The position numbers and the translations under genes are program-made. 64,000 nt of DNA from Ruegeria sp. R14_0 (GTDB lineage Bacteria; Pseudomonadota; Alphaproteobacteria; Rhodobacterales; Rhodobacteraceae), in contig NZ_JAGHRC010000001.1 in the NCBI RefSeq assembly GCF_017743975.1, positions 1 to 64,000 of the forward strand, written 5' to 3'. Below the pieces are notes generated by a model that had not been told where the DNA came from, made no database searches, and was given only the letters and a program-made list of their open reading frames with translations. Below, one piece after another: positions 19,827 to 47,710 of this stretch (position 1 is its first letter; every line of letters begins with the position of its first letter).

Positions 19827-20582
19827 TCATTCGGCTGTTGGGGCTGACCAGATAACGCTCGGCCCGTCCAGAAGTCTTAGCAGCAGGTCGTGGGTAAAGG
19901 TCCAGATGTCCTCATCATGGACCAGGTGATGGGTCAGAACGCCGAAGGGCTCGGCGTTGTCAGCGCGACCCTCACGGCGGTCTTTCAGTAGGTGCACGGT
20001 CTTGGCGATCAACGTGTCCGGGTTGGCCAATCCGCGTGACCCGCGCCAGTCAATCGGGTCCAGGTGGGTGTTGATCTGGTCCAACCCAGGTGCCGCCTGC
20101 GCGCTGGATCGCGGCGTCGCGGTCGACAGGATGCGATATCCTGCTTTCGGAAGCTCTGGCGCCACTTCGGGCGCAATACGATTCCATGGCGGCACGAACA
20201 TGGGGCACAACCGGTTCCCAAACAGCGCCTGCAGGCGCGACATGCCGGCTTGGGCGTCGCTCTGGATATCCGCCATGGGCCGATGCAGCCGAAACTCGGA
20301 TTTCTTCTCACCCTGTGGTGCGTGGTTCTGATGCGCCCAGCCATGCACAACCGGGATTAGGTGCGACCGCGCGTTGACATAGTCAGCCAGGCTGTCCTCG
20401 GCCTCGCGCGGAATGATGGCCAGATGAACCGGTACGCCAAGGTCCTCGGACATGGCCGACAGCCGCTCTAGCTGCGGTGTTTTTGAAACCGCATCGTCAT
20501 CGCGCCACCACAGCGGCAAGATCAGCCCTTGCTGCTGCCAAAGCGCCAGCTCATCCGTCAAGACGTTCCAATCGGCCATCAT
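19827..20582 (-). CDS. NodB-like polysaccharide deacetylase-family protein
   Basis: 251 aa. Deviant polysaccharide-deacetylase motifs: WWRDDDA (~25-31, Asp pair), HGWAHQNH (~80-87, metal HxxxH), MFVPPWNRI (~127-135) and GVLTHHLVHD near the C-terminus. No signal peptide, so it would act in the cytoplasm, on a sugar or lipid-linked precursor rather than a finished polymer. Start overlaps the previous gene by ATGA; a second ATG is three bases later. Confidence 0.75.
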   Translation of the reverse strand: MMADWNVLTDELALWQQQGLILPLWWRDDDAVSKTPQLERLSAMSEDLGVPVHLAIIPREAEDSLADYVNARSHLIPVVHGWAHQNHAPQGEKKSEFRLHRPMADIQSDAQAGMSRLQALFGNRLCPMFVPPWNRIAPEVAPELPKAGYRILSTATPRSSAQAAPGLDQINTHLDPIDWRGSRGLANPDTLIAKTVHLLKDRREGRADNAEPFGVLTHHLVHDEDIWTFTHDLLLRLLDGPSVIWSAPTAE

Positions 20583-21721: not shown

Positions 21722-22302
21722 TCCGGGGTCTCCTGCCGGATCAGACGGATCGGCTCTGGTTGCGCGCGGAAGTTTTCCAGATCGATGACATACAGTCGGT
21801 TGCGTTTGATTTTGAATGGGGCCTCGCCCTCGAAATTCCATCCCCAGGCCCCCGCCAGTATGACGCGCATGATGCCGATGTGGCAGACGGCGACCGTGTC
21901 GCCTTGCAACGCACCCAGCCAGGGTTGTAACCGGGCCCGAACTTCGGCCGGGCTTTCTCCGTTCGGGGGCCGATAGTCCCAGCCCCAATCTTCGATATGG
22001 CGGTAACCGCTGCCCGTATCCGCGATTAGATCAACGCCGCGCAGACCTTCCCAGTCGCCCCAGTTCATTTCGATCAGGGCCTCGGCGACCCTGGGATCTT
22101 GCCCTGCGACCAACCGCGCTGTTTCGCTGGCGCGCTGCAAAGGGCTGGACCAAAGCGCTGCTTTGTCCCACGGCGCAGGCAGTTCATATCCGGCCAGTTC
22201 GGCGCGGGCGTCGTCGTCCAGGGGGATATCGCTGCGCCCCTGAATGCGGCCCGCGCGATTCCAGTGGGTATGACCGTGGCGCAAAAGGGCAAGTCGGCTC
22301 AT
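21718..22302 (-). CDS. Histidine phosphatase (phosphoglycerate mutase-like)
   Basis: 194 aa. Phospho-histidine motif LLRHGHTHWNRAGRIQG (LRHGxT) at the N-terminus, second active-site region SSPLQRASETA, Glu in EALIEMNWGDWEGL, and the late His in VAVCHIGIMR. Such enzymes remove phosphate from sugar phosphates or cofactors. Its position between four glycosyltransferases suggests a phosphorylated sugar or glycerate-type intermediate. Overlaps both neighbours by four bases. Confidence 0.85.
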   Translation of the reverse strand: MSRLALLRHGHTHWNRAGRIQGRSDIPLDDDARAELAGYELPAPWDKAALWSSPLQRASETARLVAGQDPRVAEALIEMNWGDWEGLRGVDLIADTGSGYRHIEDWGWDYRPPNGESPAEVRARLQPWLGALQGDTVAVCHIGIMRVILAGAWGWNFEGEAPFKIKRNRLYVIDLENFRAQPEPIRLIRQETPE

Positions 22303-23375
22303 TCGGTGCCTCCGATCAGGGGTCTTGCCGCCCGCCAGAACCTTTCGGTTGCAGCCGGCATGAGGTGGCGGTCCGCTACATAAGCGCGCGCCTTCGCTCC
22401 GATCGACCGGCGCAGCGCGGGGTCATCCAACAGCTTTTGCAACCGTGCGGCAAACCCTTTGGCTCCGCTGTCGACGGACGGATAGTCGGTCGGGACCAAT
22501 ACGTCGCACACACCCGGCCTGTCCTGCGCCACAACGGGTAGCCCGCATGCCTGCGCTTCCAGATAAACCATGCCGTAGGCTTCATTCACGCCGGGCCACG
22601 CCATAACGGACGCGTCAGCGTATGCGTCCTGCAAGGCGTCGCGGTCCATCTGTCCAAGAAACTGGACCCTCGCGCCAAACGGCGCCATCACTGCTTCGAC
22701 ATCGGCTCTCGCTGGTCCGTCGCCCGCGATGTTCAGGGTCCAGTCGCCGTTCAGGTGCGACAGGGCTTGCGCCAGCACGTGGTACGAGGCCAGCTTGTCG
22801 CCCTTCCGCATCATCCCCACCGTCAGCATCGGCCCGTTGACCGAAGAAGCGGGCGGCAGCGTTGTGATCGGCAGAAAGGGCGGCAACTCGACCAGATCCT
22901 GATTGCCATATCGCTCACGCTTCAGCGTGATCAGATCGTTGGCTGTGTGGTAGTAGATCACGGCTGCCGCATCACAGGCGTCATGCGCGGACCGAGCGAA
23001 CCCGGACCATGGCCCATTCAACCGACTGGTGGCTCGGGTGCTTTCCAGTTGGACATAGGGGATATTTCGGGCGGCACTGACTTTGGGCCCCAAAAGGTCC
23101 GGTGCCTTGTAGTAATTGTGGTATGTCACCCACAGATCTGTGTCCGCAGGCATATCCGCTATTAACCGCTGCGCTTCGGCCTCGGCCGCAGCTCGGAGGT
23201 TCTGCTGTATGTCAGAATCTCCGGTTTTATCGTAGATGCGCAGCTGCGAGATGAGATCGATCTGATCCCCTTGCGCCCCGATAGCTTGGATCAGATTGCG
23301 CGCCATTTCCCTGTCGCCCGACGGCACCAGGCTGTCCGGTGATTTCATCGGTGAGAAAAAGGCGACGCGGGCCAT
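22299..23375 (-). CDS. GT4-family glycosyltransferase
   Basis: 358 aa GT-B enzyme. FFSPMKSPDSLVPSGDREMARNLIQ at the N-terminal acceptor region, LTVGMMRKGDKLASYHVLAQAL at the start of the nucleotide-sugar domain, LNIAGDGPARADVEAV, and the retaining-enzyme E-x7-E motif in EAYGMVYLEAQACGLPVVA. Last Rossmann helix ends ARAYVADRH. Neighbour overlaps on both sides indicate translation coupling. Confidence 0.85.
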   Translation of the reverse strand: MARVAFFSPMKSPDSLVPSGDREMARNLIQAIGAQGDQIDLISQLRIYDKTGDSDIQQNLRAAAEAEAQRLIADMPADTDLWVTYHNYYKAPDLLGPKVSAARNIPYVQLESTRATSRLNGPWSGFARSAHDACDAAAVIYYHTANDLITLKRERYGNQDLVELPPFLPITTLPPASSVNGPMLTVGMMRKGDKLASYHVLAQALSHLNGDWTLNIAGDGPARADVEAVMAPFGARVQFLGQMDRDALQDAYADASVMAWPGVNEAYGMVYLEAQACGLPVVAQDRPGVCDVLVPTDYPSVDSGAKGFAARLQKLLDDPALRRSIGAKARAYVADRHLMPAATERFWRAARPLIGGTE

Positions 23376-24622
23376 CAGTCTTTGCTCGCGCCCAACGCGC
23401 TAAGCCGTTTGGACAGTAGGGCAATGCCGGGGTCCATGCGGAACTCGGCCAGCAGGCGAGTGCGGGCCGCGTTTGCCATGGCTGTCGTGCGGTCCGGGTT
23501 GGTGGCCATCTCGGTGATCGCCTCGGCCAGCGCGGCCGGATTGTCATCGGACAACAGCCCATGGGTGCCGGTGTCGATAAACTCGGGGATGGCCGACACA
23601 GGTGTCGACAAGATCGGCAACAGTTGAGATGCGGCCTCCATCAACACATTCGGCAGCCCGTCGCGGTCCCCGTCTTCCGCGATGCGGCTGGGCAGGACGA
23701 ACAGGTCCGATGCGCGCATGGCGGCGATCACCTCGGGCTGATCGCAGGCCCCGCGCCAGGTGATCCGATCCGCGATACCGGCCGCCTTGGCACGCTCGCT
23801 CAGCGCCTGGGACAGCGTGCCGCCGCCAATATGGGTCCAGTGCCAGTCCAAGGCGGTTGGCAGCATGGCAAAGGCATCAATCAGGCGATCGAAACCCTTT
23901 TTCTCGACCAAACGACCAACCGAGAGCATGTGAAACGGCCCGTCCGGGGCACGTGCTGCCCGGTTCGGCGGTTCAGGAAAGCGGTTCAGGTCCAGCCCGT
24001 GATAGATCAGGTCGACCCGCGCGGGATCGTCCGCCAGACCGCGCAGGTGTTCGGCCCCGATTGCGGTGCAGGTCGCTCCGAAGGCTGCCCCGTGAGTGCT
24101 GGCCTGCAGTTTCTCGGCCTTTTCCCAATCGGGTGACGTCCAGATGTCCTTGGCATGAGCCGAAAAACTCCACGGCAGGCCGCGCATGATGGCAGCATAG
24201 CGTGCGACCGAGGACGGAGTGTGCATGAAATGCGCGTACATCACGTGTGTTTCTGCAGGCAGCTCGGCGGCCAGAACGCATGCCTGCCCAAACCGCCGAA
24301 TGCGGTTATGCGTCGGGTCGCGACGCAGATCCGCGCGCCAGACCGTGTAGGCTTCGGCATAGCCGGGCAGGGATTTCGCAACGCCGCGCGCCGCCCAGAC
24401 GCGGTCAGGTTCCTCGTACAGATATTCCGGCAGGTAATGCACCTGGCCCTTGAAACGGTCGTGCAGCGGGTGGCGCTTGACGTCCGTTGGGTGTCTCAGG
24501 GACCAGATGTCGAACCGGTGGCCTGCATCCTGCAAGGCGACCAGTTCCTGTGCGATAAACGTCTCTGACAGGCGCGGCCAACCTTTGACCAGCACCGCGA
24601 GCTTGGGTTGTTTGGAAGTCAT
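23375..24622 (-). CDS. GT4-family glycosyltransferase
   Basis: 415 aa GT-B enzyme. LAVLVKGWPRLSETFIAQEL at the N-terminus is typical of GT4 enzymes for exopolysaccharide-like chains (SETFI motif). FSAHAKDIWTSPDWEK lies in the linker; MLSVGRLVEKKGFDRLIDAF and EDGDRDGLPNVLMEAASQL (E-x7-E) are the donor-binding half. Start overlaps the upstream glycosyltransferase by ATGA. Donor and acceptor unknown. Confidence 0.87.
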   Translation of the reverse strand: MTSKQPKLAVLVKGWPRLSETFIAQELVALQDAGHRFDIWSLRHPTDVKRHPLHDRFKGQVHYLPEYLYEEPDRVWAARGVAKSLPGYAEAYTVWRADLRRDPTHNRIRRFGQACVLAAELPAETHVMYAHFMHTPSSVARYAAIMRGLPWSFSAHAKDIWTSPDWEKAEKLQASTHGAAFGATCTAIGAEHLRGLADDPARVDLIYHGLDLNRFPEPPNRAARAPDGPFHMLSVGRLVEKKGFDRLIDAFAMLPTALDWHWTHIGGGTLSQALSERAKAAGIADRITWRGACDQPEVIAAMRASDLFVLPSRIAEDGDRDGLPNVLMEAASQLLPILSTPVSAIPEFIDTGTHGLLSDDNPAALAEAITEMATNPDRTTAMANAARTRLLAEFRMDPGIALLSKRLSALGASKD

Positions 24623-25833
24623 CCGGTGGCCCGTTCCCGTTCTCCACCAAGCAGCGCGTCGACGCGGCTTGTTACATAGTCCAGCCCATCCAGCAGGCCT
24701 TCCCGGATCGCCTGCGACGGCAGATCTTGATGCGGCAAATTGCGGATGGCCCCGATCATGGACTCGGTCGTCAGCGCGTCGCGATTATCGTCCAGCATCC
24801 GCACCAGGCCCAGGTTCTCGGCCCGAGAGGCGCGGATCCATTGCTCCAGGCGTGGGGTCGTGCGCGGAACGATGACGGCGCGTTTGTCAAAAGACAGCAC
24901 CTCGCAAAAAGTGTTGTAACCGCCCATGCAGACGACGCCGGCGGCCCCTGCAAACAGAGTTTCGATTTGCGATTCAAAACCTACTGCTGTGACGCGACCA
25001 TTCAGGGCTGCAACGCGCGCCTCGAATTCATCTCGCAGTTCACCTGCCAGGAAGGGGCCGTACACCAGAACGGCCCGGGGTGACAGGGTGGGGTCTTGCT
25101 CATAGGCGGAGAGAACCAGGTTCACCATGGCCTTGCCATCGCCGCCCCCGCCGGGCGTGATCAGGATGTAAGGCTGTTCCGGCGGTTCACCGAGGGGTCC
25201 CAGATCACGGCGCAGATAGCCCGTCCAGTGGATCCGCGACTGTGCGGCAGTGCTGAGGGGCAGGCCCTTGGTCGGGTCATAGACCGAACGCAGCCCGTAG
25301 ACCCAGATTTCGTCATAGAATTTCTCAGTCGCTTCGATGGCCTCTTTTCGCGCCCATTCGGCTGCCAGAACATCAGGCTCGTCGAGAACGTCGCGCAAAC
25401 CCAGAACGATCTTGGTGCGCCGGGTGCGCATCATGGTTTCCAGCGTCGGCACCAGTTCTCCGCGAAACCCTGTGGGTTCTTTGTCGACGATCAGGACGTC
25501 GGGATCGAATTGCTGAACGGACGTCTGGATGAGCCCAGCGCGCAACTCGGTAACCTCTTCGATCCCCATGCCAATCGTTTGCGAGGCATACGTTCCGTCG
25601 GCTCGTTTGGTCACACCGGGCAGGCGCACGTGGTCAACGCGGCGTGGAAATGTGAAGCGACCGGCAACGGGCGAGCCCGTCAGGATCAGAGCCGACGCAG
25701 AAGGGTCCGCCTGCGTTATTGCACTCGCCAATGCCCGGGACCGGCGCAAATGGCCCAAGCCGAACGTATCGTGGCTGTAGAGCAGAATGCGTGGCGCACG
25801 GCCGATTGTTTTTTCTTGTCTTTTCAGGCTCAT
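24619..25833 (-). CDS. MurG/UGT-like glycosyltransferase, first gene of the glycan operon
   Basis: 404 aa from ATG 25833 (ribosome site AGGCGAAGG); an in-frame ATG ten codons earlier is less likely. RILLYSHDTFGLGHLRRSR carries the GxGH loop; VDKEPTGFRGELVPTLE, VLGLRDVLDEPDVLAAEW, ILITPGGGGDGKAMV and GVVCMGGYNTFCEVLSFDK form the donor side. Strongly similar in outline to the 20579-21721 protein, but diverged. It leads the seven-gene operon and is preceded by a 7-bp dyad (25901-25916). Confidence 0.82.
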   Translation of the reverse strand: MSLKRQEKTIGRAPRILLYSHDTFGLGHLRRSRALASAITQADPSASALILTGSPVAGRFTFPRRVDHVRLPGVTKRADGTYASQTIGMGIEEVTELRAGLIQTSVQQFDPDVLIVDKEPTGFRGELVPTLETMMRTRRTKIVLGLRDVLDEPDVLAAEWARKEAIEATEKFYDEIWVYGLRSVYDPTKGLPLSTAAQSRIHWTGYLRRDLGPLGEPPEQPYILITPGGGGDGKAMVNLVLSAYEQDPTLSPRAVLVYGPFLAGELRDEFEARVAALNGRVTAVGFESQIETLFAGAAGVVCMGGYNTFCEVLSFDKRAVIVPRTTPRLEQWIRASRAENLGLVRMLDDNRDALTTESMIGAIRNLPHQDLPSQAIREGLLDGLDYVTSRVDALLGGERERATG

Positions 25834-26190
25834 GCCTTCGCCTATTTCACTGTCTTGGTGCAACTCCGCGCGCTTGCACCCGTAACGTATATATTTTTCC
25901 GGTTTTGAGCAAAACCAAGGATTTGAATCTGCCTGCTTCGGTTTGCGACGTATTTGACCGAAGATTTTACATTCGCGCCCTGTTCTACATCAAATTGTCA
26001 GCTTGCCCGCCATATTAACCGTCTTTGCCCGGTCATATTCCGTTTTTACAAGGTTGCAAACACTTCCTTTCCAAGCATGGTCCCAGGAACACGCCGTGAC
26101 ACGATGTTGCGACATACCGGGTTGTGTGTTTGAACCGGTCGAAAGGCTTCGATACTCTGCCTTGCGAAGAATGAATTGGAAAAAAACCGG
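25834..26190. other. Divergent promoter region between the glycan operon and mscS-like gene
   Basis: 357 nt without a convincing gene; short frames on the plus strand have no ribosome site or recognisable sequence. It is AT-richer than its surroundings, as expected for promoters in both directions. It contains a perfect dyad at 25901-25916. No other structure was recognised. Confidence 0.6.
25901..25916. promoter_or_regulatory. Inverted repeat upstream of the glycan operon
   Basis: GGTTTTG-AG-CAAAACC is a perfect 7-bp dyad 68 nt before the first glycosyltransferase start. It could be an operator or a small leader hairpin. No regulator gene adjoins it. Confidence 0.35.
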
Positions 26191-28674: not shown

Positions 28675-30018
28675 CTAAGGCCAAGCAGGGGCCGAAGTCC
28701 CAAGCTTTGACGCGGGCCGGTCCCAAACCATCTTGGCCGCGCCCACGGTCAAGGCTGGTTTCAAGCGGCGCCCGGCCCCCCAGCCCGAAGCCTCGGGCCG
28801 GGTGTCGTAATCCTCAGGCGTCGCGTTGGAAATGGTCTCTTGCGTTTCGGACTTACTGAGAACGGCCAGCAGCTCGGCGGTGCGCGCCAAGGAAAGCTGG
28901 CCCATCATGGTGGCATTCCCTGACGCGGCCTCGACCATGGCGGAAAGGGTGGCTGCGGCCATCAGGTAGCCGGTCGCGTGATCCAACGCTTGCACAGGCA
29001 GGGGCGTAGGTTTGTCCGCCTTTGCCCAATCCCGGCCCGCATCGGCGATCCCGGCGCTCATCTGCACAAGGCTGTCGAACCCGCGTCGGCTGGCCCATGG
29101 GCCCTGCCAGCCATAGGCATCCAGCGTGACCTCGACCCGGTTCGGGGCAAGTTCATCGCGTTTGGCCTTGGTCAGCCCCAGCCCGTCCAGAGCACCGGGG
29201 CGATAGCCATGGATGAAGACGTCGGCTTGTGAAAGCAGGTCTTGCAGCTTTTCCAAACCAGCGGGTGATTTCAGATCAAGATAGGCGCAGGATTTACCCA
29301 GTGAGATGTCAGGAATAACGCCGGGTTCGTCCCAATCGGGGGGGTCAATACGTAGAACTTTGGCGCCGAACGCGGCCAACGTGCGGGTCGAGACGGGACC
29401 CGCCAGTACACGCGTCAGGTCGAGGACGCGCAACCCCGCCAGCGGACGCGCTGCCGAGGCCTCGGGCCGGTCGCGCAGGGTGATCTGGCGCGGGCTGTGC
29501 CATCCGATGAGTGGATCGCGGGATACGGCGCGGCCCTGGGGATGATCCAACCAGTCCGACCGGCTGCGCATGGCCGCAGCAACGCCCCCTTGCGCTACGA
29601 CCGCAGACTCCAATTCGCTGGCCGCCCATGTGCGGACCGCCTGCGCCACCGCTGTCTTGTCTGCCTTGACCTCTAGCACTTTCAACGCCGCGGCCCGGTG
29701 GCGCGGCAGGTTGGTGTGTAGCCGGATCCAGCCGTCGGCGGTCTGGTAATCGCCTGCGACCGCGTCCCAAAGGCTGGGCATTTCCCACCCGTCAGGTTTG
29801 AAGGAAAAGCCATACCAAAGCGAGGCCAACCTGTGATCTACAGTTGCCTCAGGCATGTCAGACGACAGGTTGAGGGCCGCTGTCAGCCGCGCCAGTTCCT
29901 GTCCGACAGCGCCGAAGGTAGCCGTTGCCAGTTCGGATACAGCGAACGCGCTGGATAGGGCACCTTTACCCGTCGTCCGATAACTGTCGGTTGAAGGCAG
30001 GGCGGACAACAGGCTCAT
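28675..30018 (-). CDS. CaiB/BaiF-type (family III) CoA-transferase
   Basis: 447 aa. The family core starts with LAGLRVLDLTRVLAGPVSTRTLAAFGAKVLRID and DLKSPAGLEKLQDLLSQADVFIHGYRPGALDGLGL, then FDSLVQMSAGIAD. The N-terminal ~190 residues are a less conserved extension, so the order is a variant (circularly arranged or two-domain) form of the family. It overlaps the ABC permease gene by ATGA as the last gene of a YejABEF-like operon. It may activate the imported acid to a CoA thioester; substrate unknown. Confidence 0.82.
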   Translation of the reverse strand: MSLLSALPSTDSYRTTGKGALSSAFAVSELATATFGAVGQELARLTAALNLSSDMPEATVDHRLASLWYGFSFKPDGWEMPSLWDAVAGDYQTADGWIRLHTNLPRHRAAALKVLEVKADKTAVAQAVRTWAASELESAVVAQGGVAAAMRSRSDWLDHPQGRAVSRDPLIGWHSPRQITLRDRPEASAARPLAGLRVLDLTRVLAGPVSTRTLAAFGAKVLRIDPPDWDEPGVIPDISLGKSCAYLDLKSPAGLEKLQDLLSQADVFIHGYRPGALDGLGLTKAKRDELAPNRVEVTLDAYGWQGPWASRRGFDSLVQMSAGIADAGRDWAKADKPTPLPVQALDHATGYLMAAATLSAMVEAASGNATMMGQLSLARTAELLAVLSKSETQETISNATPEDYDTRPEASGWGAGRRLKPALTVGAAKMVWDRPASKLGTSAPAWP

Positions 30019-31169
30019 TGCTGATACGGGTCAAGGCTGTCGCGCAACCCATCCCCCAGGAAGTTGAAGGCCAGCACTACAACGATGATCGGCAGCATCG
30101 GGATGGCTGTCCACGGATAGATCTCGATCGAGGCGAGGTTCTGCGCGTCATTCAGCATCACGCCCCAACTGACCGCCGGGGCCCGCAGGCCAAGTCCCAG
30201 AAAGCTGAGTGCGGTTTCCCCAAGGATCATAGCCGGGATCGACAAGGTGGCCGAGGCGATCAGGTGTGACATAAAGTTTGGCAGCAGGTGCTTGCGTATC
30301 ACCCGGCCCGAGCTTGCGCCCATCATCTCGGCGGCGCGGACGTATTCCTCTTCCCTTAGGGATAGGAATTTGGCGCGTACGGAACGGGCAAGGCCAGGCC
30401 AGTCGAGTATCCCAAGGATAATCGAGATGATGAAGAACACGGCGACCGGGCTCCAGTTCGATGGAACAGCGGCCGAAAGGGCCAGCCAAAGTGGCAATTC
30501 GGGCAGTGATCGCAGAATCTCGATCACCCGGTTGATGACCCAGTCGATCTTGCCGCCAAAGTAGCCAGCCATCGACCCGAACAGGATGCCCAGAAAGAAA
30601 GACACGGAAATGCCGATCAGGCCGACGGTCAGAGACAGCTGCGCGCCGTAAAGGATACGGCTGAACACGTCGCGTCCAAGGCGATCCGAGCCCCACAGGA
30701 ACAGGGTCGCCCCTTCGGGCGCGCAAAACAGGTGGGTGTCAGACTTGATCAACCCGGCCAGCCGGTATTCGGACCCCTCACAGAAAAAGCGAATAGGGCG
30801 GGGGTCTTCGGTGTCGGGTACGAATTTCCACTGGAACGTCTCAAGATCGGCCTCGGCGACGATCGGATAGACATAGGGGCCGATGAACTTGCCCTCGTGG
30901 AACCAGTTGACGTTTTGGGGCGGGGCATAAAGGTGTTCGCCATTCCGTTCATTCGGTCCATAGGGCGCGATGAAGCCCGCAAATGGCAACATCAGGTAGC
31001 ACAGCAGCAGGAATATCCCCGAGATCAGGCCCAGCTTGTGGGTTCTGAACTTGCGCCAGACCAACAGCCAGTTGGGCGCGTCGAGATCGGCGCGTTCAAC
31101 CTGTTGGAGCGAGGCATCGGGATCGAAAGGAGCATCGTCGACAAAGCGACCGTCTGGATGTTTGGTCAT
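30015..31169 (-). CDS. Peptide-type ABC transporter permease, YejE-like
   Basis: 384 aa. Membrane helix near residues 48-70 (GLISGIFLLLCYLMLPFAGFI), then a long periplasmic segment (WFHEGKFIGPYVYPIVAE..., ~80-165) typical of YejE, then the permease domain with YVRAAEMMGASSGRVIRKH (EAA loop) and FLGLGLRAPAVSWGVML. In E. coli YejABEF imports microcin C and other peptides. ATGA overlaps on both sides couple it to the YejB-like gene and the CoA-transferase. Confidence 0.9.
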   Translation of the reverse strand: MTKHPDGRFVDDAPFDPDASLQQVERADLDAPNWLLVWRKFRTHKLGLISGIFLLLCYLMLPFAGFIAPYGPNERNGEHLYAPPQNVNWFHEGKFIGPYVYPIVAEADLETFQWKFVPDTEDPRPIRFFCEGSEYRLAGLIKSDTHLFCAPEGATLFLWGSDRLGRDVFSRILYGAQLSLTVGLIGISVSFFLGILFGSMAGYFGGKIDWVINRVIEILRSLPELPLWLALSAAVPSNWSPVAVFFIISIILGILDWPGLARSVRAKFLSLREEEYVRAAEMMGASSGRVIRKHLLPNFMSHLIASATLSIPAMILGETALSFLGLGLRAPAVSWGVMLNDAQNLASIEIYPWTAIPMLPIIVVVLAFNFLGDGLRDSLDPYQQ

Positions 31170-32194
31170 GCTTCACGCCCCTCGTAGCGAATGCGCGGGT
31201 CCAGCATGACCAGCAGAATATCAGAGATCATGGTGCCGATCAGGGTCAGTAAGGCCACGAACATCAGGATGAACGCCGAAAGGAATTGATCCTGTGTCTT
31301 CAGCGCGGTCAGCAGGGTCGGACCAATGGTCTGCAGGCCCAGAACGACCGAAACCAGAACCGAGCCGGACACCATCGAGGGCAGCAAATTCCCGATATCA
31401 GCCACAAACGGGTTGAAGGCCACGCGCAACGGGTATTTCGTCAGCATCCGTGACGGGGCCATACCCTTCGCGATGGCGGTTTCAACGTATGGCTTGCCCA
31501 GCTCATCCAGCATGTTGGCGCGCAGGCGTTGCATCATGGCCGACGCGCCGGAAGTGCCGATGACAAATGTCGGAACGATCAGGTGCACGAGAATGGACTT
31601 CAGCTTTTCCCAGCTCATCGGCTGGCCTTCGAAAGAGGGGTCCATCAGGCCGCCAATGGGCAGGTCGAAATAGCGGTGGCCGTAGTAGAAAAGGATCAGC
31701 GCCAGCAGGAAGTTCGGTGTCGCAAGACCCAGATAACCCACAAAGGCCGAAGTATAGTCGATCCACGTGCGCGACCGGGCCGCCGCAATCACTCCCAAGG
31801 GCAAGGCGACTGCGTAGACGAACAGAATGGCAGCCAGATTCACGACGACTGTCAGCCACAGAGTGTCGCCGACGATTTCGGCCACGGGGCGGTCGAATTC
31901 AAAGGACCAACCGTAGTTGCCTTGCACCAGGCCCTCGAACCCGTGCGGGCCGGGCCAGAAGCCCATCCAGATTAGATATTGCTCCCAGATCGGGCGGTCC
32001 AATGCGTATTCGGTGCGCAAAAACTCGGCTTTGGCCACACCGGCAGACTGACCAGAAGCCTGAAGTTCTGCGATCTGGTTGCTCAGGTAATCGCCTGGGG
32101 GCAGGTTGATGATCACGAAGATCAGAACCGAGACCACCAGCAAAGTCAGCAGCATCGTGAAAAAGCGATACACCACATAGCGCAGCATGACCAT
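31166..32194 (-). CDS. Peptide-type ABC transporter permease, YejB-like
   Basis: 342 aa. N-terminal helix MLRYVVYRFFTMLLTLLVVSVLIF as in DppB/YejB, then INLPPGDYLS, and the permease domain with LRANMLDELGKPYVETAIAKGM (EAA loop region) and LDPRIRYEGREA at the C-terminus, the usual ending of this family. Start may be at 32194 or two codons later. 14 nt after the binding-protein gene. Confidence 0.9.
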   Translation of the reverse strand: MVMLRYVVYRFFTMLLTLLVVSVLIFVIINLPPGDYLSNQIAELQASGQSAGVAKAEFLRTEYALDRPIWEQYLIWMGFWPGPHGFEGLVQGNYGWSFEFDRPVAEIVGDTLWLTVVVNLAAILFVYAVALPLGVIAAARSRTWIDYTSAFVGYLGLATPNFLLALILFYYGHRYFDLPIGGLMDPSFEGQPMSWEKLKSILVHLIVPTFVIGTSGASAMMQRLRANMLDELGKPYVETAIAKGMAPSRMLTKYPLRVAFNPFVADIGNLLPSMVSGSVLVSVVLGLQTIGPTLLTALKTQDQFLSAFILMFVALLTLIGTMISDILLVMLDPRIRYEGREA

Positions 32195-32208
32195 TTAGCT
32201 GCTCCTGA

Positions 32209-34119
32209 TCAGTCGGCGAAAAAGAATTCGTCGGGGCGGTGGATGCCGAAATGCGCGCCGGGCTCCCATGCCCACATGCCTTGCTCGGGCACGTTGCGCA
32301 GGCGGTTGGACACGACGATGGGCTGCGGCGCGCCATTCAGAATACCGATGGCATAAAGCTGGTCAGCATGAATGCTCAGCATCTCGGTCCAAACGGCGGC
32401 GCGCTCTTCGTCGGTTGTGGCGATTTCCCAATCGTGGGCAAGCTCCATCAGACGCTCGGCCTCGGGCATGTCCGGGGCTTCGCCGACATCGCCGCCTGTC
32501 TGGTAATACTGCCCCCATTTGGGCCACGCCAGAAACACCTGATCGGTCGGGGCCAAATAGGCGGGCGAGGTGTGAGCTTGCGGAATACCGTCATCCCAGC
32601 CGAACCAGACCGAGGCCATCGTATTACCTGCAAAAACGCGGTTGCGCAGGATGTCCCGGTCCAGGGGGCGCATGACAAGGTCGACACCGATCTCACGCCA
32701 TGTATCGGTGACGATCTGCAGGGCGTTTTCCACCTCCTGCCGTTCACCGGCGGTTTCAATGATCAGTTCCATCGGGCGGCCATCGGGTAGCAGTCGGATG
32801 CCGTTCTTGTCGCGCTCAGCCAGACCCGCCTCGTCCAGAAGGGCGTTTGCCATTTCGACATCATATTGCGCCCAGGCCTTTGCGTTTTCCTCGTCATAGA
32901 ACGGAGAGGCCGGCAACACGGACATCGCGCCGGGATGAGCCAGCTTGAAATAGAGTGCCTGGTTGATCGTCTTGCGGTCGATGGCCAGCGACAGGGCGCG
33001 GCGCACCCGGACGTCGCGCAGCACCTCGCGCCAGGCCTCGTCGGCATAGTTCAGGTTCGGATAGATGGCGATCTGCGATGCCACGCCAGTCTTCCACAGC
33101 AGGGTTTTGTAATCACCGCCTGCTTCGCCCTTTTTCAGGATCGACGCATCGCGGAAAGCCAACCCGCGCCCTTGCAAATCAGTCTCGCCCGCGTTGGCCT
33201 TGGCCGCGACCAGACCGGGGGCCACAATCTCCATCTCGACCACGTCGATATAAGGCAGTTGCACGCCGTTGGAGTCGATCCGGTGGTAGTACGGGTTTCG
33301 AACAAAGTTGTGGCGGATTTTCTTACCAGAACTGGCGTTCAGCCAAGGCTGCAGCGTCGGCAATTCGTGGTTGTCGAACTTGTACAGGTTGTCCAGCTTG
33401 TTGTGCAGGGCGGCCCAGCTTTTGACACGTGCGTCCTCGACCAGAAAGGCGAGTTCTTCGGCGTCCGCAAATTTTTCATGATACTGTTTGAGGAAGGCGG
33501 CGGGACGATAAATAAATGGTGGCCGCGCTTGCGCCAGGGACTGCAAAAAGTCGGGGTTGGGATCTTCCCACTCGAACACGACGGTGGTTTCGTCCGGGAA
33601 AGAAACGGTTGGTGTTTTGCCTTCGACAATCAGGAAATCCGGCGGTCCGGAGGGGCTGAGAAGTTCGTTATTCGCCACGTCCTCCCACCAGTATCGGAAG
33701 TCTTCTGAGGTAAAGGGCGAGCCATCTGACCACTTGTGGCCATCCCGCAGTTTAAGGGTGAATTTGCGATTGTCTTCGTTTTCAAATGACTCCAACAAAT
33801 CCGGAACGATCTCGTAGTTCTCGTCGAAACCCACCAGTCTGGCATAGCCATATACCACCATCTGACGAATATCCTTGGAGCGGGTCACCATGGTGCGCAG
33901 CGTTCCGCCCGGCGCCCCAAACTCTCTGCCCTTGGCTGTCAGGTCCACCACCAAAGGCTCGACCGGCAAACGTTCGGCGACCGGTGGAAGGTTTCCGGCG
34001 TTCACTTCGGTGGCCCAAAAGGCGCTTTCCTGCGGAGTGGGCGTGCCTGCCGTGGCGGGCAGCATCCAGGTGGCGGCCAGTGCAGCGGCCAGAATGAGTG
34101 GGCGAGTGGTCTTAAACAT
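32209..34119 (-). CDS. Peptide-type ABC transporter substrate-binding protein, YejA-like
   Basis: 636 aa. Signal peptide MFKTTRPLILAAALAATWMLPATAG. SBP family 5 features: VYGYARLVGFDENYEIVPDLLESFE, FTLKLRDGHKWSDGSPFTSEDF, VRRALSLAIDRKTINQALY. Larger than DppA, as is usual for YejA-type receptors. Periplasmic. Overlaps the ATPase gene by 8 nt. The ligand is probably a peptide or an organic acid related to the CoA-transferase, not determinable here. Confidence 0.9.
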   Translation of the reverse strand: MFKTTRPLILAAALAATWMLPATAGTPTPQESAFWATEVNAGNLPPVAERLPVEPLVVDLTAKGREFGAPGGTLRTMVTRSKDIRQMVVYGYARLVGFDENYEIVPDLLESFENEDNRKFTLKLRDGHKWSDGSPFTSEDFRYWWEDVANNELLSPSGPPDFLIVEGKTPTVSFPDETTVVFEWEDPNPDFLQSLAQARPPFIYRPAAFLKQYHEKFADAEELAFLVEDARVKSWAALHNKLDNLYKFDNHELPTLQPWLNASSGKKIRHNFVRNPYYHRIDSNGVQLPYIDVVEMEIVAPGLVAAKANAGETDLQGRGLAFRDASILKKGEAGGDYKTLLWKTGVASQIAIYPNLNYADEAWREVLRDVRVRRALSLAIDRKTINQALYFKLAHPGAMSVLPASPFYDEENAKAWAQYDVEMANALLDEAGLAERDKNGIRLLPDGRPMELIIETAGERQEVENALQIVTDTWREIGVDLVMRPLDRDILRNRVFAGNTMASVWFGWDDGIPQAHTSPAYLAPTDQVFLAWPKWGQYYQTGGDVGEAPDMPEAERLMELAHDWEIATTDEERAAVWTEMLSIHADQLYAIGILNGAPQPIVVSNRLRNVPEQGMWAWEPGAHFGIHRPDEFFFAD

Positions 34120-35884
34120 GGCATCGTACCTTATGTCCGGGCTCCATCTCTACCAGTGAAGGTATCACGGAGTCGGTAAATCGGAAGGTGTCATCCCAAC
34201 TGTCTGGTGAACCTGCGCCCAAAGCAACCAGTTTCAGGTCGATGGGTCGGTTGATGTCGGGTTCCGGTTGAGCGGCGATCAGCGCCTTGGTGTAAGGGTG
34301 GCGCGGGTTGTAAAATAGTGTTTCTGGCGGGGCCTGTTCCACGACAAGCCCCCGGCGCATCACCGCGACTTCGTCGGCAATACGCGCCACGACCGCCAAG
34401 TCGTGCGAGATAAACAGGTAAGACAGGTTCAAGCGATCCTGCAGGTTTTCCAGCAAGGTGAGGATCTGTTCTTGAACCGATACGTCCAGCGCCGAGGTCG
34501 GCTCGTCACAGACGATCAGCTGCGGGTCCAGCATCATCGCCCGCGCAATAGACAGGCGCTGTCGCTGGCCGCCAGAAAACGCGTGCGGATAGCGTTTCAG
34601 CATATCGCCGTTAAGGCCGACGCGTTGCAGCATCTCGACCGCCTTGTCCCGCTGTTCGGCAGCGGACCCCATAGAGTGGATCTCAAGCGGTTCAGTCAGC
34701 GCGTCCTGAATGCGCATCCGCGGGCTGAGCGAGCTGTAGGGGTCCTGAAACACCATCTGCGCCTTGCGCTGGAACGCGGTGCGCTGTGCGCGCGTCATCT
34801 GATGCACGGGTATCGGGTCTTCGTCCGGCGCGGTGCGGAACAGAACCTCGCCGCCCGGATCGGGAAGCTCGGCGCCAAGGGCAATCCGCGCAGCCGTGGT
34901 TTTACCCGATCCGCTTTCGCCGACGATCGCCAACGTCTTGCCGCGGGCAAGGTTCAGGTCGACGCCGCGGCAGGCGTGGATCAGCTTGTCCTCTTGCCAC
35001 CCTTTGCTTGAGCGCATGGTATAGGTCTTGGACACGCCCTTCATCTGCAGGATGAGATTTTCATCCGGCATCGGCAAGCCAACGGATTCTTCATCAGGGA
35101 TGGCGGGCGCTGCGTTGAACAGTTGTTGCGTATAAGGGTGTGCTGGTGCGCTGAGGATTGGTGCGGCGGCACCAGCCTCCATCACGCGGCCTTTGTGCAT
35201 GACAACGACCTGCTCGGCCATGTTGGCCACAACGCCCAAGTCATGGGTCACAAGGATCAGGGCCATGCCCGTTTCGCGTTGCAATTCCTTGATCAGGCCC
35301 AGCACCTGCGCTTGTGTCGTGACGTCAAGTGCGGTCGTCGGCTCGTCCGCGATCAGCAATTCCGGCTTGGATACCATCGCCATCGCAATCATAGCGCGTT
35401 GGCGCATCCCGCCTGACAACTCAAACGGATAAGAATCATAGGCGCGTTGCGGGTCCGGAAAGCCTACGCGCTCGAACTGGGTCAGAACCTCTTTGCGGGC
35501 CTGCGCCTCGGACGCGTTGCGGTGCAACCACAGAACTTCGCTGACCTGATTGCCGATCTTGTGCAGCGGAGAAAGGGAGCGCATCGGCTCTTGAAAAATC
35601 ATCGAAACCCGGTTGCCGCGAATATCGCGCATCTGCCGTTCGCTGATCTGCGTCAGATCTTCGAAACCTTTCGAATCGTTCAGGGTAATCGTGCCGCTGC
35701 GAATCTGGGCTGCGCGCGGAAGGATCCGCAAAGCTGCCCGACATGAGATGGTTTTGCCCGATCCGGATTCACCGACCAATGCCAGTGTCTGCCCTGCCTC
35801 GACATCAAAACTGACGCCTTTGACAACGGCCTCACCCGCACCGAATCCGATGCTTAGATCCTTAACGGACAACAACGCGGTCAT
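34112..35884 (-). CDS. Double-domain peptide ABC transporter ATPase, YejF-like
   Basis: 590 aa with two complete nucleotide-binding domains: first GESGSGKTIS, LSGGMRQRAMIAMAM, LLIADEPTTALDV; second GESGSGKTTAARIAL, FSGGQRQRLSIARAM, LIVCDEPTSALDV. The fused arrangement is that of YejF. First gene of the operon ATPase-receptor-permease-permease-CoA-transferase, an order different from E. coli yejABEF. Upstream 234 nt (35885-36118) hold the divergent promoters; no operator was recognised there. Confidence 0.93.
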   Translation of the reverse strand: MTALLSVKDLSIGFGAGEAVVKGVSFDVEAGQTLALVGESGSGKTISCRAALRILPRAAQIRSGTITLNDSKGFEDLTQISERQMRDIRGNRVSMIFQEPMRSLSPLHKIGNQVSEVLWLHRNASEAQARKEVLTQFERVGFPDPQRAYDSYPFELSGGMRQRAMIAMAMVSKPELLIADEPTTALDVTTQAQVLGLIKELQRETGMALILVTHDLGVVANMAEQVVVMHKGRVMEAGAAAPILSAPAHPYTQQLFNAAPAIPDEESVGLPMPDENLILQMKGVSKTYTMRSSKGWQEDKLIHACRGVDLNLARGKTLAIVGESGSGKTTAARIALGAELPDPGGEVLFRTAPDEDPIPVHQMTRAQRTAFQRKAQMVFQDPYSSLSPRMRIQDALTEPLEIHSMGSAAEQRDKAVEMLQRVGLNGDMLKRYPHAFSGGQRQRLSIARAMMLDPQLIVCDEPTSALDVSVQEQILTLLENLQDRLNLSYLFISHDLAVVARIADEVAVMRRGLVVEQAPPETLFYNPRHPYTKALIAAQPEPDINRPIDLKLVALGAGSPDSWDDTFRFTDSVIPSLVEMEPGHKVRCHV

Positions 35885-44097: not shown

Positions 44098-44499
44098 TCA
44101 GCTTACGGGTACGGCGACGAATTCAACCCACGCCCATACCATCGCAATATAGGTCAGGTTGTGCATGAACTGATCCAGACCGGCTGCGCGCCAGAATGCG
44201 GCCTGCGTCGGGACCAATTGCTTTTTGTCCGAATAGCTGGCCTTGGCAAAATCGATATTGAAATGAACGATCCATTCCAGTGCAGCAATGATCAAAATAA
44301 AGGACCAAGGGGCGCCGAAAATCAAAAAAACAAGCACGGACCCGACCACATGCACGCCCGCATGCTGCGCACGTCCCAGGTGAAAATACTCACCGCGTCC
44401 TGCCAACATTTTCGGGGTCTGAAGGAAGAAGTCCGCAAACATATGTTTGATCTGCAATAAGCAGAGCATCAATAGCACTGCGCCTATACTGGCAGTCAA
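44098..44499 (-). CDS. DUF3307-family membrane protein
   Basis: 133 aa with a TTG start at 44499 and GGAGG 7 nt upstream. Sequence LLQIKHMFADFFLQTPKML (H..aDF.LQ signature of DUF3307), GRAQHAGVHVVGSVLVF and LEWIVHFNIDFAKASY (late HxxxD-type motif) with three to four membrane helices. The conserved His/Asp pattern suggests a membrane metal site. Function unknown. Convergent with the preceding gene. Confidence 0.75.
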   Translation of the reverse strand: MTASIGAVLLMLCLLQIKHMFADFFLQTPKMLAGRGEYFHLGRAQHAGVHVVGSVLVFLIFGAPWSFILIIAALEWIVHFNIDFAKASYSDKKQLVPTQAAFWRAAGLDQFMHNLTYIAMVWAWVEFVAVPVS

Positions 44500-44701
44500 A
44501 ATCGTCCTCCCGATATCGTCCCAATCCGGACTCTAGGCACTTATGGCAGCTTGCGCAAATGAACTTGTTCACATTCGGCAATTATCTGATCAAATTGGAA
44601 ACCGTTTGCGTCTTTTGGCTGGATTGCAGTAAATTTGTGGTGTTGGATTTGCGACAGTTTCGTCAAGATCGGATCGGTGATCCGCAACAGGGGCAGGTTC
44701 C

Positions 44702-47700
44702 ATAGAACGTTCAATTTTCCAGTTCATTTGGAAGTACTCGAAGCGCGACCAGCTGATCCTGCTGGCCGTGACCTCGACGCTGTTTCCGCTGTTGTACCTG
44801 ACGCTGGAGCTGCCCAAACGCATCATCAATGATGCGATCGGTGCAACCAGCCCGACTGTCGAGTTCTGGGGCTACAGCCTGCCGCAGACGACCTTTCTGA
44901 TCATTCTGTGTGTCGCGTTCCTGATGGCGGTTCTGGCGCATGGTTTGATGAAAATGCGCATCAACACGATGAAAGGTGTGTTGAGCGAGCGGATGCTGCG
45001 TCGGTTCCGCTATGTCCTGATCAGTCGCGCTCTGCGTTTCCCGCAGCCCTATTTCGAACGGGTCAGCCAGGGTGAGCTGGTGTCCATGGTCACCGCTGAA
45101 AGTGAACCGATGGGTGGGTTGATGGGCGACGCGATCAGCCAGCCTGTCTTGCAAGCCGGGCAGATGATCACCATCCTGTTCTTTCTGTTTCTGCAAAGCT
45201 TCTGGTTCGGACTGGCCGCGGTTGCGCTGATCCCGCTGCAGGCCTGGTTGATCCCGAAACTGCAGCGCCAGATCAACCTTCTGAACAAAAAACGCATTCA
45301 GGAGGTCCGGGTTCTGGCCGCACAGATTGGCGAGAACGCCGCGGGCGCGTCCACCCTGCGCACCAATGGCGGGTGGAGGTATCGCCGCGCGATGATTTCG
45401 GACCAGTTGGGCCGTCTGTTCGGCATCCGCTTCGAAATCTATCAGAAGAAGTTCTTTATGAAGTTCATAAACAACTTCATCTCGCAGCTGACGCCATTCA
45501 TGTTTTATCTGGTTGGTGGCCTTTTAGTGCTGCAGGGCTCGGTTTCGCTGGGGGCGCTGGTCGCTGCTCTGGCGGCATATAAAGACCTGAGCTCGCCGTG
45601 GAAGGAACTGCTGACCTATTACAACCAGACACAGGACATGGGCTTGCGCTGGGAAGTGGTGACCGAACGGTTTGCACCGGCGGGCATGCAGGACGAAAAG
45701 CTGTTCGAGGGCGAGCCCGAGACACGCCCCCGCCTGAGCGGCGATATCGTGCTGGATCATGTCTCGGTTCGTGACATGGACGGCAATCAGGTGCTGGACG
45801 ATCTGAACCTGACTTTCGCCAGCGGGCAAACGATCGGAATCTCGGCCCCCAGCGAAGAGGACCGGCGCGCTGTTGCCGAGCTCTTGACGCGGGAAATCCT
45901 GCCCAGTGCGGGCCGTGTGCGGATCGGCGATCTCAATCTGTCGGATCTGCACCAAGGCGTGGTGGCCGCGCGGATCGGCTATGCCTCATCCCGACCGGTG
46001 ATGTTCCAGGGCACGCTGGGCGATAATGTGATGATGCCCATGCGGTTTAAGCCGCAATCGAACGAAACAAACGATCCCGGTTTTGCCGAGACGCTGCGGG
46101 CCGGAAACAGCCCGGATCCGTTCAAGGCAGATTGGCTGGACCCGTCAACCGCCGGGTTGCAAAGTGCGGACGAGGTGCGCGACTGGTGGCTGAAACTGAT
46201 CGACGGGATGGGTTCTGGCGCGGCGTTGTTCTTGCGCGGGGCAGAACAGGGCTTTGATGCGGAGGAGCATCCTGAACTGGCGCGTAAACTGGTGGAATTG
46301 CGTCCGCTTGTGCAGCAGGCGGTAATGGACGCAGGGCTGGGACAGCAAGCTCTGATCTTCGACCGCAACTGCTACAACGCGGCATTGCCGGTGGCCGAGA
46401 ACCTGCTGTTTGCCACTCCGAAAGTGCCGGTCACCCAAGAGCTTTTGACCCAGCAAACGGTGTTCCTGCAGCAGCTGCGCGCTTTTGGTCTGGATGAAAT
46501 CCTGGTCAGCCTGACGCGGGATGTGATTGAGATGCTGCGCCAGATCTTTGGTTTGGATGGCACCGACCACCCGCTGTTCCGCAAGCTGGGGCTTGATGCA
46601 CAGACCTACGAGGCTGCCGTTGAACTGGTCGAAAAGACACGGAACGAAGGGGTCTCGGGGCTGGACGACGAACAGCTGGCCAATCTACTGGCCGTTCCTT
46701 TCGTGATTTCGGCAGAACAGATCGGCCCGGCCTTTACCGATGACCTGAAGGACCGCATTCTTGAGTTGCGGCACAGCCATTCCGAAAAGCTGCTGGAGCG
46801 GCTGCTAGACGTTTTCGTGCCGCTGGACAACACGGCATTTGCACCGGGTTTGACGGTTTTGGAAAACGCGCTGTTCGGCAAGGTCAGCCAGATTGGCGGC
46901 GCGCGTTCGGATGAGGCGCGCAAGCTGATCGTCGATGTGCTGAACGAAAACGGCGCGCGCCCGTTGGTGGTCGAACTGATCTATGATGTTCCGGTCGCTT
47001 TGGGCGGGCAGAACCTGCCTGCGGTCTTTGCAGAACCTTTGTCCTTTACGCGCGCGACGATCAAGAAACCCGACATCCTGATCCTTGAGGATGCGCTGGC
47101 CAGCTATGACATGGCCTCGAAGGTGGCGGTCTATAAAAACTTGCGGGCTTTGCTGCCGGATACGACCGTGATCTATCTGAATGACCAGTTCGAAAATCCC
47201 GGCGTATTCGACATGTATGTCGAAATACGGCAAGGTCGGGTGGTCTCGGATGAAGGACCCGCGGACGTGGAGGAAGACAGCGCCGCCTCGGCTGACCTTG
47301 CGCGCAAGCTTCGCGCGCTCGAGCAGACACCGCTGTTTTCCGGGCTGGACCGGAGACAGCTGCGCCTGCTGGCTTTTGGTGCGCGTTGGTTTGATGCCCA
47401 ACCCGGCGAGATTGTGTTCCTCAAGGATGATCAGCCGACTGATGGCGCCTATGTGGTTCTGGGCGGGGAAGCGGGGTTGTACCTGCCGCAGCCCGACGGA
47501 GTGGATCAGTTGATCGCCAAGGTTGGCCCTGGTGCTCTGGTCGGAGAATTGGGTCTGATCCGCAAGGAACCTCGGGCGCTGAGCATGATTGCCGAAACCG
47601 AGCTGTCCTGCCTGCGGATCGGTGAGGAAGAATTCCTGGCTGTTGTCGAAAACGATGCCGCGACAGCGTTCAAACTGTTGCAAGTGATCGCAGGTTACGT

Positions 47701-47710
47701 GTCCAACTAG
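44702..47710 (+). CDS. Large ABC protein with degenerate ATP site, long insertion and cNMP-binding-like C-terminus
   Basis: If read from 44702 the product has 1002 aa. Residues 1-320: ABC exporter-type membrane domain (LELPKRIINDAIG, ERVSQGELVSMVTAESEPM). Residues ~345-800: NBD in which Walker A reads GISAPSEEDRRA (no Gly-Lys-Ser/Thr), the signature is LGGQNL, and Walker B ILILEDALASYD is kept; about 320 extra residues separate the Q-loop region from the signature. Residues ~860-1000: cNMP/CRP-type sensor (PGEIVFLKDDQPTDGAYVVLGGEAGLY). No ATG/GTG/TTG precedes family-like sequence: codons from 44702 (ATA) on read IERSIFQFIWKYSKRDQL, with AGGGGCAGG just upstream; the first usual start (GTG 44768) would remove 22 conserved-looking residues. 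Confidence 0.75.
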   Translation: MERSIFQFIWKYSKRDQLILLAVTSTLFPLLYLTLELPKRIINDAIGATSPTVEFWGYSLPQTTFLIILCVAFLMAVLAHGLMKMRINTMKGVLSERMLRRFRYVLISRALRFPQPYFERVSQGELVSMVTAESEPMGGLMGDAISQPVLQAGQMITILFFLFLQSFWFGLAAVALIPLQAWLIPKLQRQINLLNKKRIQEVRVLAAQIGENAAGASTLRTNGGWRYRRAMISDQLGRLFGIRFEIYQKKFFMKFINNFISQLTPFMFYLVGGLLVLQGSVSLGALVAALAAYKDLSSPWKELLTYYNQTQDMGLRWEVVTERFAPAGMQDEKLFEGEPETRPRLSGDIVLDHVSVRDMDGNQVLDDLNLTFASGQTIGISAPSEEDRRAVAELLTREILPSAGRVRIGDLNLSDLHQGVVAARIGYASSRPVMFQGTLGDNVMMPMRFKPQSNETNDPGFAETLRAGNSPDPFKADWLDPSTAGLQSADEVRDWWLKLIDGMGSGAALFLRGAEQGFDAEEHPELARKLVELRPLVQQAVMDAGLGQQALIFDRNCYNAALPVAENLLFATPKVPVTQELLTQQTVFLQQLRAFGLDEILVSLTRDVIEMLRQIFGLDGTDHPLFRKLGLDAQTYEAAVELVEKTRNEGVSGLDDEQLANLLAVPFVISAEQIGPAFTDDLKDRILELRHSHSEKLLERLLDVFVPLDNTAFAPGLTVLENALFGKVSQIGGARSDEARKLIVDVLNENGARPLVVELIYDVPVALGGQNLPAVFAEPLSFTRATIKKPDILILEDALASYDMASKVAVYKNLRALLPDTTVIYLNDQFENPGVFDMYVEIRQGRVVSDEGPADVEEDSAASADLARKLRALEQTPLFSGLDRRQLRLLAFGARWFDAQPGEIVFLKDDQPTDGAYVVLGGEAGLYLPQPDGVDQLIAKVGPGALVGELGLIRKEPRALSMIAETELSCLRIGEEEFLAVVENDAATAFKLLQVIAGYVSN

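Follow-up and report, generated by a model that had tools for sequence, protein, structure and literature searches.

A pseudo-ATPase ABC exporter of Alphaproteobacteria with a cyclic-nucleotide-binding domain: a candidate signal-gated component of a glycan pathway, likely initiated at AUA or AUC

Results

The Gene and Its Family

The subject of this study is a gene at positions 44702 to 47710 of the forward strand in a stretch of DNA of 64,000 nucleotides (the window), which is the beginning of contig NZ_JAGHRC010000001.1 of Ruegeria sp. R14_0 (assembly GCF_017743975.1). A preliminary description, based on the letters of the sequence alone, had proposed that the gene encodes a signal-gated, ATP-independent membrane protein derived from an ATP-binding cassette (ABC) exporter. 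The limits it gave for the open frame were correct: the frame runs for 1002 codons from an ATA triplet and is closed by TAG. The features of the gene, each with its basis in parentheses, are as follows.

44702..47710, forward strand: pseudo-ABC exporter gene fused to a cyclic-nucleotide-binding (CNB) domain (open frame, Pfam, relatives)
44689..44693, forward strand: AGGGG, Shine-Dalgarno-like, ending 8 bases before the ATA (sequence)
44702..44704, forward strand: ATA, likely a non-canonical start codon (orthologue conservation; pN/pS)
44702..45680, forward strand: exporter-type transmembrane domain (TMD), approximately residues 1-326 (PF00664; helices in the model)
45836..45871, forward strand: degenerate P-loop GISAPSEEDRRA, residues 379-390 (alignment)
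45971..46006, forward strand: Q-loop region 1 RIGYASSRPVMF, residues 424-435 (alignment)
46037..46807, forward strand: helical-subdomain insert, approximately residues 446-702 (alignment; predicted helical)
46271..46525, forward strand: duplicated unit, first copy, holding IFDRNCYNAALPVAENLLFATP (hhalign)
46739..46990, forward strand: duplicated unit, second copy, holding VPLDNTAFAPGLTVLENALFGK (hhalign)
46985..47035, forward strand: former signature region LGGQNLPAVFAE, residues 762-778 (alignment)
47069..47110, forward strand: former Walker B and D-loop PDILILEDALASYD (alignment)
47399..47656, forward strand: CNB domain, residues 900-985 (PF00027)
47531..47584, forward strand: CNB pocket stretch GALVGELGLIRKEPRALS (alignment)

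The membrane domain is preserved, as had been proposed: PF00664 (ABC_membrane) matched residues 40-290 with 57.5 bits against a cut-off of 28. The CRP-like sensor assigned to the C-terminus was likewise borne out by PF00027, which matched there with an E value of 6.5e-16 and 58.5 bits (cut-off 27.5). PF00005 (ABC_tran) gave no match to the Ruegeria protein up to E = 1. Among sequences of solved structure the nearest are ABC exporters, which align with the TMD and the beginning of the nucleotide-binding domain (NBD).

A search of genome contigs returned 336 relatives, the best 80 of which were kept. These 80 are 67-99% identical to the query and match its residues 1-982 or more; the top match is from Ruegeria arenilitoris (99% identity), and by title nearly all are from Roseobacteraceae or Rhodobacteraceae. 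Since 79 of the 80 fetched relatives are free of inner stops and the ratio of nonsynonymous to synonymous polymorphism (pN/pS) in codons 100-200 is 0.18, we take the gene to encode a maintained protein and rule out a pseudogene or a sequencing error. The remaining relative, a metagenome-assembled copy (L055), has one in-frame stop. One record titled Nocardioides marinus (L071) holds a copy, 69% identical, that is typical of Roseobacteraceae, and the record is therefore probably mislabelled.

The gene was detected in 129 of 385 genomes sampled from Alphaproteobacteria (E <= 1e-40) and in 60 of 295 genomes of the window's family (E <= 1e-100). With a distant member as query, 299 genomes of the phylum yielded 22 matches, 21 of them within the class; the one outside is a match of TMD length only. 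Judged by this conservation, we are dealing with a large alphaproteobacterial family of real, maintained proteins. Its members in plasmid records are usually named "ABC transporter transmembrane domain-containing protein" or similar, and no title listed in searches of the open-licence text of PubMed Central pointed to a paper on the family, or to one on this gene in the literature on non-AUG starts.

The genome of the strain itself holds further relatives. One (L192, C21:499525-502530) is a full-length second paralogue, 52% identical, which starts with ATG and adjoins a CAAX protease gene and accD. Two others (L193 and L194, on C1 and C11) are TMD-only relatives with open frames of 411 and 330 amino acids and neither an NBD nor a CNB domain in frame.

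Loss of the ATP Site

To describe the catalytic motifs we used an alignment thinned to 143 of 186 rows plus the window protein (144 rows), in which the 84 rows with a TMD identity of at least 66% are called close and the other 60 distant. The degenerate P-loop of the preliminary description is real, and homologues share it. The Walker A pattern GxxxxGK[S/T] is absent from the window protein, which reads GISAPSEEDRRA at this place, and GK[S/T] was found in 0 of 84 close and 1 of 60 distant rows (1 of 144 overall). The P-loop lysine is missing from all 84 close rows, and an aspartate or glutamate follows its position in 51 of 60 distant rows. An exact LSGGQ signature is present in 0 of 144 rows; a looser pattern, [S/T/N]..Q, is met in 0 of 84 close versus 48 of 60 distant rows. 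The H-loop histidine is kept in 0 of 84 close versus 16 of 60 distant rows. Walker B had been thought to be preserved, which holds for its beta strand (LILEDALASYD in the window protein) but not for its catalytic residue: the aspartate and glutamate are swapped in the window protein, and none of the 84 close rows has the catalytic glutamate. The Walker B aspartate is present in 63 of 84 close versus 5 of 60 distant rows. Because the motif counts are graded between close and distant rows, the ATP site appears to have decayed in steps, furthest in the branch of the window.

The fold has outlived the site. In a full-length structure model (mean pLDDT 75), residues 333-855 superimpose on the NBD of TAP1 with a Z score of 23.1 and 3.2 A over 234 residues, the alignment running around the insert; the structures nearest to the model are PCAT1, TM287/288 and TAP. 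Aligned sequences also show invariant columns throughout the membrane domain. By alignment and model, then, the protein is a pseudo-ATPase ABC exporter, with a membrane domain and an NBD fold under purifying selection and with the residues for ATP binding and hydrolysis lost.

An intact NBD of exporter-like type encoded alongside is rare. An exporter-like ABC gene with an intact P-loop lies near the gene in 2 of 40 distant loci (within about 8 kb) and 1 of 80 close loci (within 10 kb). Intact ABC neighbours of any kind were seen in 26 of the 40 distant loci, and importer-type ATPases with an intact P-loop in 25 of the 40 and in 44 of the 80 close loci.

An Insert Built Partly by Duplication

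The distance from the Q-loop to the signature is usually some 60 residues. In the window protein about 330 residues separate the Q-loop region from the former signature region, close to the 320 of the preliminary description. Segments were compared with hhalign, leaving aside matches where cut segments overlap at their ends, and those holding FDRNCYNAALPVAENLLFATP and LDNTAFAPGLTVLENALFGK proved to be copies of one unit (98.7%, E = 3.3e-16, 84 columns). The unit is itself Q-loop-like (FD..YN..ENLLFG), and the first Q-loop segment matches it weakly (83.5% over 21 columns, 58% over 63). All three Q-loop-like stretches, as judged by eye, are present in 29 of 29 aligned homologues. The helical subdomain thus grew partly through tandem duplication, as read from these repeats. 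Folded alone, the insert is helical (pLDDT 83); its model had no match in the PDB at E <= 0.001 with Foldseek, which need not mean a new fold.

The CNB Domain and Its Link to Cyclases

The phosphate-binding cassette of the CNB domain is well kept. Counting the window protein, its arginine is present in 53 of 53 sequences and its acidic residue is glutamate in 46 and aspartate in 7; we take the roles of the pocket glutamate and arginine to be those known from CAP. Among 60 neighbourhoods (L152-L211), 55 hold a full-length gene, and a CNB domain was found at 52 of these, fused in 15 and, in 37, encoded as a gene of its own that follows on the same strand at a distance of -145 to +140 bp. Being fused or strictly adjacent, the exporter and the CNB domain are very likely partners.

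Every one of 80 genomes with the gene has at least one class III cyclase. Six of 46 distant genome loci have a cyclase on the same strand within about 1.3 kb (L155, L157, L162, L176, L200 and L210; the distance at L162, where open frames overlap, is uncertain), as against 0.33 expected if 10.8 cyclases per genome were placed at random in 4.3 Mb. Five cyclases went into the profile used, and three of these came from loci counted here. Among Roseobacteraceae, 13 of 92 loci have a same-strand cyclase 402-939 bp upstream, and in all 13 a DUF3307 gene lies between it and the pseudo-exporter. In S. meliloti and R. leguminosarum a cyclase belongs to the same cluster, 10-12 kb from the gene. Ten of these 21 cyclases (those of the six distant loci, that of S. 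meliloti and three of the 13) were scanned with Pfam, and all matched PF00211 above the cut-off; their other domains were CHASE2 in one, 2Fe-2S (Fer2) in two and HAMP in three, with none in four. The repeated arrival of cyclases so differently built is our best evidence that the ligand would be cAMP or cGMP. The two Fer2-bearing class III cyclases, which adjoin the pseudo-exporter at L200:5761-7515 and L210:5026-6837, possibly represent redox-controlled synthesis of cyclic nucleotides.

A Glycosyltransferase Module

The gene is associated with a group of genes that, like the non-AUG start, had no place in the preliminary description. In genomes outside the Roseobacter group it usually stands head to head with a glycosyltransferase operon. 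The corresponding features of the window are as follows; its operon and a peptide-type importer occupy 19.8-35.9 kb, the importer lying 8.8 kb from the gene.

19827..20582, reverse strand: polysaccharide-deacetylase-like protein (40% identity to an S. meliloti protein so annotated; no Pfam family above cut-off)
20579..21988, reverse strand: GT28_C-type glycosyltransferase (Pfam)
22299..23375, reverse strand: GT4 glycosyltransferase (Pfam)
23375..24622, reverse strand: GT4 glycosyltransferase (Pfam)
24619..25863, reverse strand: GT28_C/MJ1255-like glycosyltransferase, used as co-occurrence marker (Pfam, searches)
30015..35884, reverse strand: peptide-type importer with dual ATPase, SBP5 and two permeases (Pfam)
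44098..44499, reverse strand: DUF3307 membrane protein, divergent neighbour (PF11750; orthologue in 77 of 80 fetched loci)

In the 385 alphaproteobacterial genomes, of which 127 have the GT28-like marker, the marker and the pseudo-exporter are both present in 123 and both absent from 252. A Fisher test of this co-occurrence ignores phylogeny; by genus, each is found in 86 of 277. The two share a contig in 100 genomes, and in 85 of these they are divergent and lie within 2 kb of one another. Within the window's family, each of the 60 genomes that carry the gene also carries the marker, and a further 15 carry only the marker, at cut-offs that differ (1e-100 for the gene and 1e-40 for the marker). 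At least two of the glycosyltransferases lie within about 8 kb in 28 of 40 distant loci. Also found near the gene in these 40 were genes for a histidine phosphatase (18), a polysaccharide-deacetylase-like protein (19), an S-adenosylmethionine-dependent methyltransferase (19), a peptide-type importer ATPase (26, by best label) and SBP5 (5, within about 8 kb). The complete importer is present in the rhizobial and Azospirillum clusters; in NCBIfam the importer ATPase of the window comes closest to YejF, with 545 bits where the cut-off is 834. None of 20 scanned window proteins matched Wzx or Wzy models, which would leave the membrane step for the glycan open to the pseudo-exporter.

The glycosyltransferase cluster has a gene for an MscS-type channel beside it in the window (26176-28575) and also in Sulfitobacter and S. 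meliloti (L150, L274). A part in anti-phage defence, for example as a Pycsar-type effector responding to a cyclic nucleotide, was considered and rejected, no PADLOC family (2023 library) having matched up to E = 0.01.

A Conserved Start Codon without a 3' G

The gene has no ATG, GTG or TTG at its apparent beginning. Among the 80 fetched loci the codon at this place is ATA in 61, ATC in 17 and ATG in 2; both ATG exceptions (L032, L034) have a neighbouring cyclase, which may be chance. For a wider comparison we limited rows to a TMD identity of at least 66% and a length of at least 900, and built a FastTree phylogeny of 130 deduplicated rows, with warnings of long branches at L221 and L223. In the orthologue clade (111 rows) the codon is ATA in 77, ATC in 31 and ATG in 3, with no ATT, GTG or TTG; a start without a 3' G is thus conserved in 108 of 111. 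In the sister paralogue clade, 15 of 15 rows have ATG at the same place.

Several observations bear on where translation begins. In 109 rows, codons 2-17 have a pN/pS of 0.14 and codons -7 to -1 one of 1.12. Of these rows, 90 carry a Shine-Dalgarno-like, G-rich run that stops 7 or 8 bases before the codon, by a loose list of motifs without a shuffled control. We rejected the GTG at 44768, the start in a mechanical call of open frames, because codons 2-17 evolve as coding sequence, because 62 of the 109 rows have no ATG, GTG or TTG between the upstream stop and codon 17, and because the paralogues have ATG at the site of the ATA. A start farther upstream, where 44 of the 109 have some canonical codon in frame and 65 have none, is countered by the neutral-looking change in codons -7 to -1. 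Nor does the ATA behave as an ordinary internal isoleucine codon, of which 75% are ATC, 22% ATT and only 3% ATA. On the tree the start codon changed 18 times between ATA and ATC, 3 times to or from ATG and never to ATT; at the invariant internal isoleucine codons 9 and 41, changes between ATC and ATT numbered 14 and 20, and ATA arose about twice at each. Of ten neighbour genes with enough orthologues, eight have a canonical codon shared by at least 85% within the first 64 codons and one has such a codon shared by 84% (ArsR was unresolved). The first comparably shared canonical codon of the pseudo-exporter is an internal methionine codon at position 85. We conclude from this pattern that the ATA at 44702 is likely the start codon. 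The public gene model of the TM1040 orthologue (L146) begins 17 codons after the conserved ATA, and its N-terminus is probably misannotated.

AUA and AUC are among the triplets without a 3' G that are subject to discrimination by initiation factor 3 (IF3), according to PMC4611024; IF3 and codon-anticodon strength have been studied in a reconstituted system (PMC10158994). We searched 31 genomes for infC, the gene for IF3, and fetched 30 loci, of which the 19 from the window's genus were resolved and 11 more distant ones were not. With the N-terminus of IF3 assigned by eye, ATA stands at the expected place in 19 of 19 genomes of the genus, following an AAAGGA-like run at similar spacing (L232-L234, L236-L251). 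Since infC of the same genus also appears to start with ATA, an IF3-sensitive, weak initiation is suggested for the pseudo-exporter. From the conservation of the codon, initiation of this gene is probably weak and controlled by IF3, and, we infer, kept so by selection.

Discussion

Our favoured explanation, to which we give a probability of about 40%, is that the protein serves a glycan pathway as a gate or flippase that is gated by cyclic nucleotides and probably independent of ATP. Binding of cAMP or cGMP to the CNB domain, instead of ATP hydrolysis, would open, close or assemble a homodimer. The linked glycosyltransferase operon would make a surface glycan, for which the dimer would provide the membrane step, as a gate or flippase. 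The essence of the preliminary proposal is retained here, in that the ATP site is lost in 84 of 84 close relatives, the cyclic-nucleotide pocket is conserved, and cyclases adjoin the gene in several lineages. The strong form of ATP independence did not hold up so well.

Several findings weigh against this explanation. The P-loop lysine is present in 31 and the catalytic glutamate in 28 of the 60 distant rows, so that some relatives may still bind ATP, and ATP independence may not extend to the whole family. No CNB domain was found beside three of the 55 full-length members (L160, L176 and L184). Most loci (79 of 92 in Roseobacteraceae and 36 of 46 among the distant genomes) have no cyclase in the stretch searched or, at L169 and L178, one on the opposite strand 3.1 and 6.4 kb from the gene. 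No frame of the 64-kb window matched two rhizobial cyclases by BLAST, and the cyclase that neighbours the gene at L031 had only matches of 31-39%, in its C-terminal part, in the strain's own genome, where cyclase matches number 14 in all. The link to the glycosyltransferases is incomplete as well: among the 385 genomes the pseudo-exporter lacks the marker in 6 and the marker lacks the pseudo-exporter in 4, the marker of the window lies 18.8 kb from the gene and not head to head with it, and the paralogue clade B is mostly located elsewhere (by accD at 5 of 7 loci with known context).

A somewhat less probable but still credible alternative is that the protein is a regulator or scaffold: a dead half-transporter that senses the cyclic nucleotide, moves no substrate itself and serves to hold the glycosyltransferases or the importer in place or to switch them. 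The death of all catalytic motifs in close relatives and the tight linkage to the glycosyltransferase operon suit this idea, and the conserved helical insert, without a match in the PDB, is a plausible docking surface. Against it stand the invariant columns along the whole membrane domain and the TMD-only relatives in the same genome, which together suggest that the TMD itself has a job.

It is distinctly unlikely that the protein is an ATP-driven exporter after all, with an odd P-loop that still binds ATP or with a partner half-transporter that supplies an intact NBD. The NBD fold is intact in the model, the P-loop lysine survives in about half of the distant rows, ABC_tran scored above its cut-off in 5 of 5 distant members scanned, and degenerate ATP sites are common among heterodimeric exporters. 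Yet close relatives have lost every catalytic motif, and few loci (2 of 40 and 1 of 80) have an intact exporter-like ABC gene nearby. That the protein regulates the peptide-type importer rather than the glycan pathway is highly improbable: of the 40 distant loci, 26 have an importer-type ATPase and 5 have SBP5 within about 8 kb, and whole importers occur in the rhizobial and Azospirillum clusters, but the divergent glycosyltransferase gene is the closest and most constant partner found, and many loci have no importer in the stretch searched.

The gate or flippase explanation can be extended to the amount of protein. Because translation seems to start at AUA, as that of infC also seems to, and at AUC in some relatives, the amount might be held low and tied to IF3. 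The combined proposal, that a second messenger has replaced ATP in a glycan gate or flippase whose dose is set by the AUA or AUC start and hence by IF3 and the state of translation, we consider rather doubtful as a whole. What the gene shares with infC is the ATA inferred as start codon, which in infC follows an AAAGGA-like run; the products are unrelated, and the pseudo-exporter has AUC in 31 of 111 orthologues and no AUU.

How does the protein compare with known systems? With type IV ABC exporters (such as MsbA, PCAT1 and TmrAB) it has the TMD family and the NBD fold in common, whereas it lacks the P-loop lysine, the signature, the catalytic glutamate and the H-loop histidine, and has some 250-270 extra residues in the helical subdomain and a CNB tail. 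SUR and CFTR are ABC proteins that have ceased to be pumps, SUR proteins being regulators of a channel, and so offer a precedent for ABC architecture as a gate or regulator; they keep at least one ATP site, whereas close relatives of the window protein keep no catalytic residue and have a CNB domain as the ligand domain. Flippases of lipid-linked glycans of the PglK and MsbA type, which resemble it in joining an exporter-type TMD to glycosyltransferase genes, are ATPases, while the window protein carries a cyclic-nucleotide sensor. Prokaryotic CNB channels such as MloK1 likewise have a C-terminal CNB domain with a conserved GE...PR pocket, but the membrane part of the window protein is the TMD of an ABC exporter and not an ion-channel pore.

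If the favoured explanation is right, the family would represent an ABC exporter that has lost its motor and is driven by a signal instead, with gating separated from ATP hydrolysis in the transporter fold that has been studied most, and the membrane step of a widespread and apparently uncharacterised alphaproteobacterial glycan module would have been named. Independently of this, the AUA or AUC start, kept in 108 of 111 orthologues, provides a clean natural case in which to ask why a gene should keep a weak, IF3-sensitive start.

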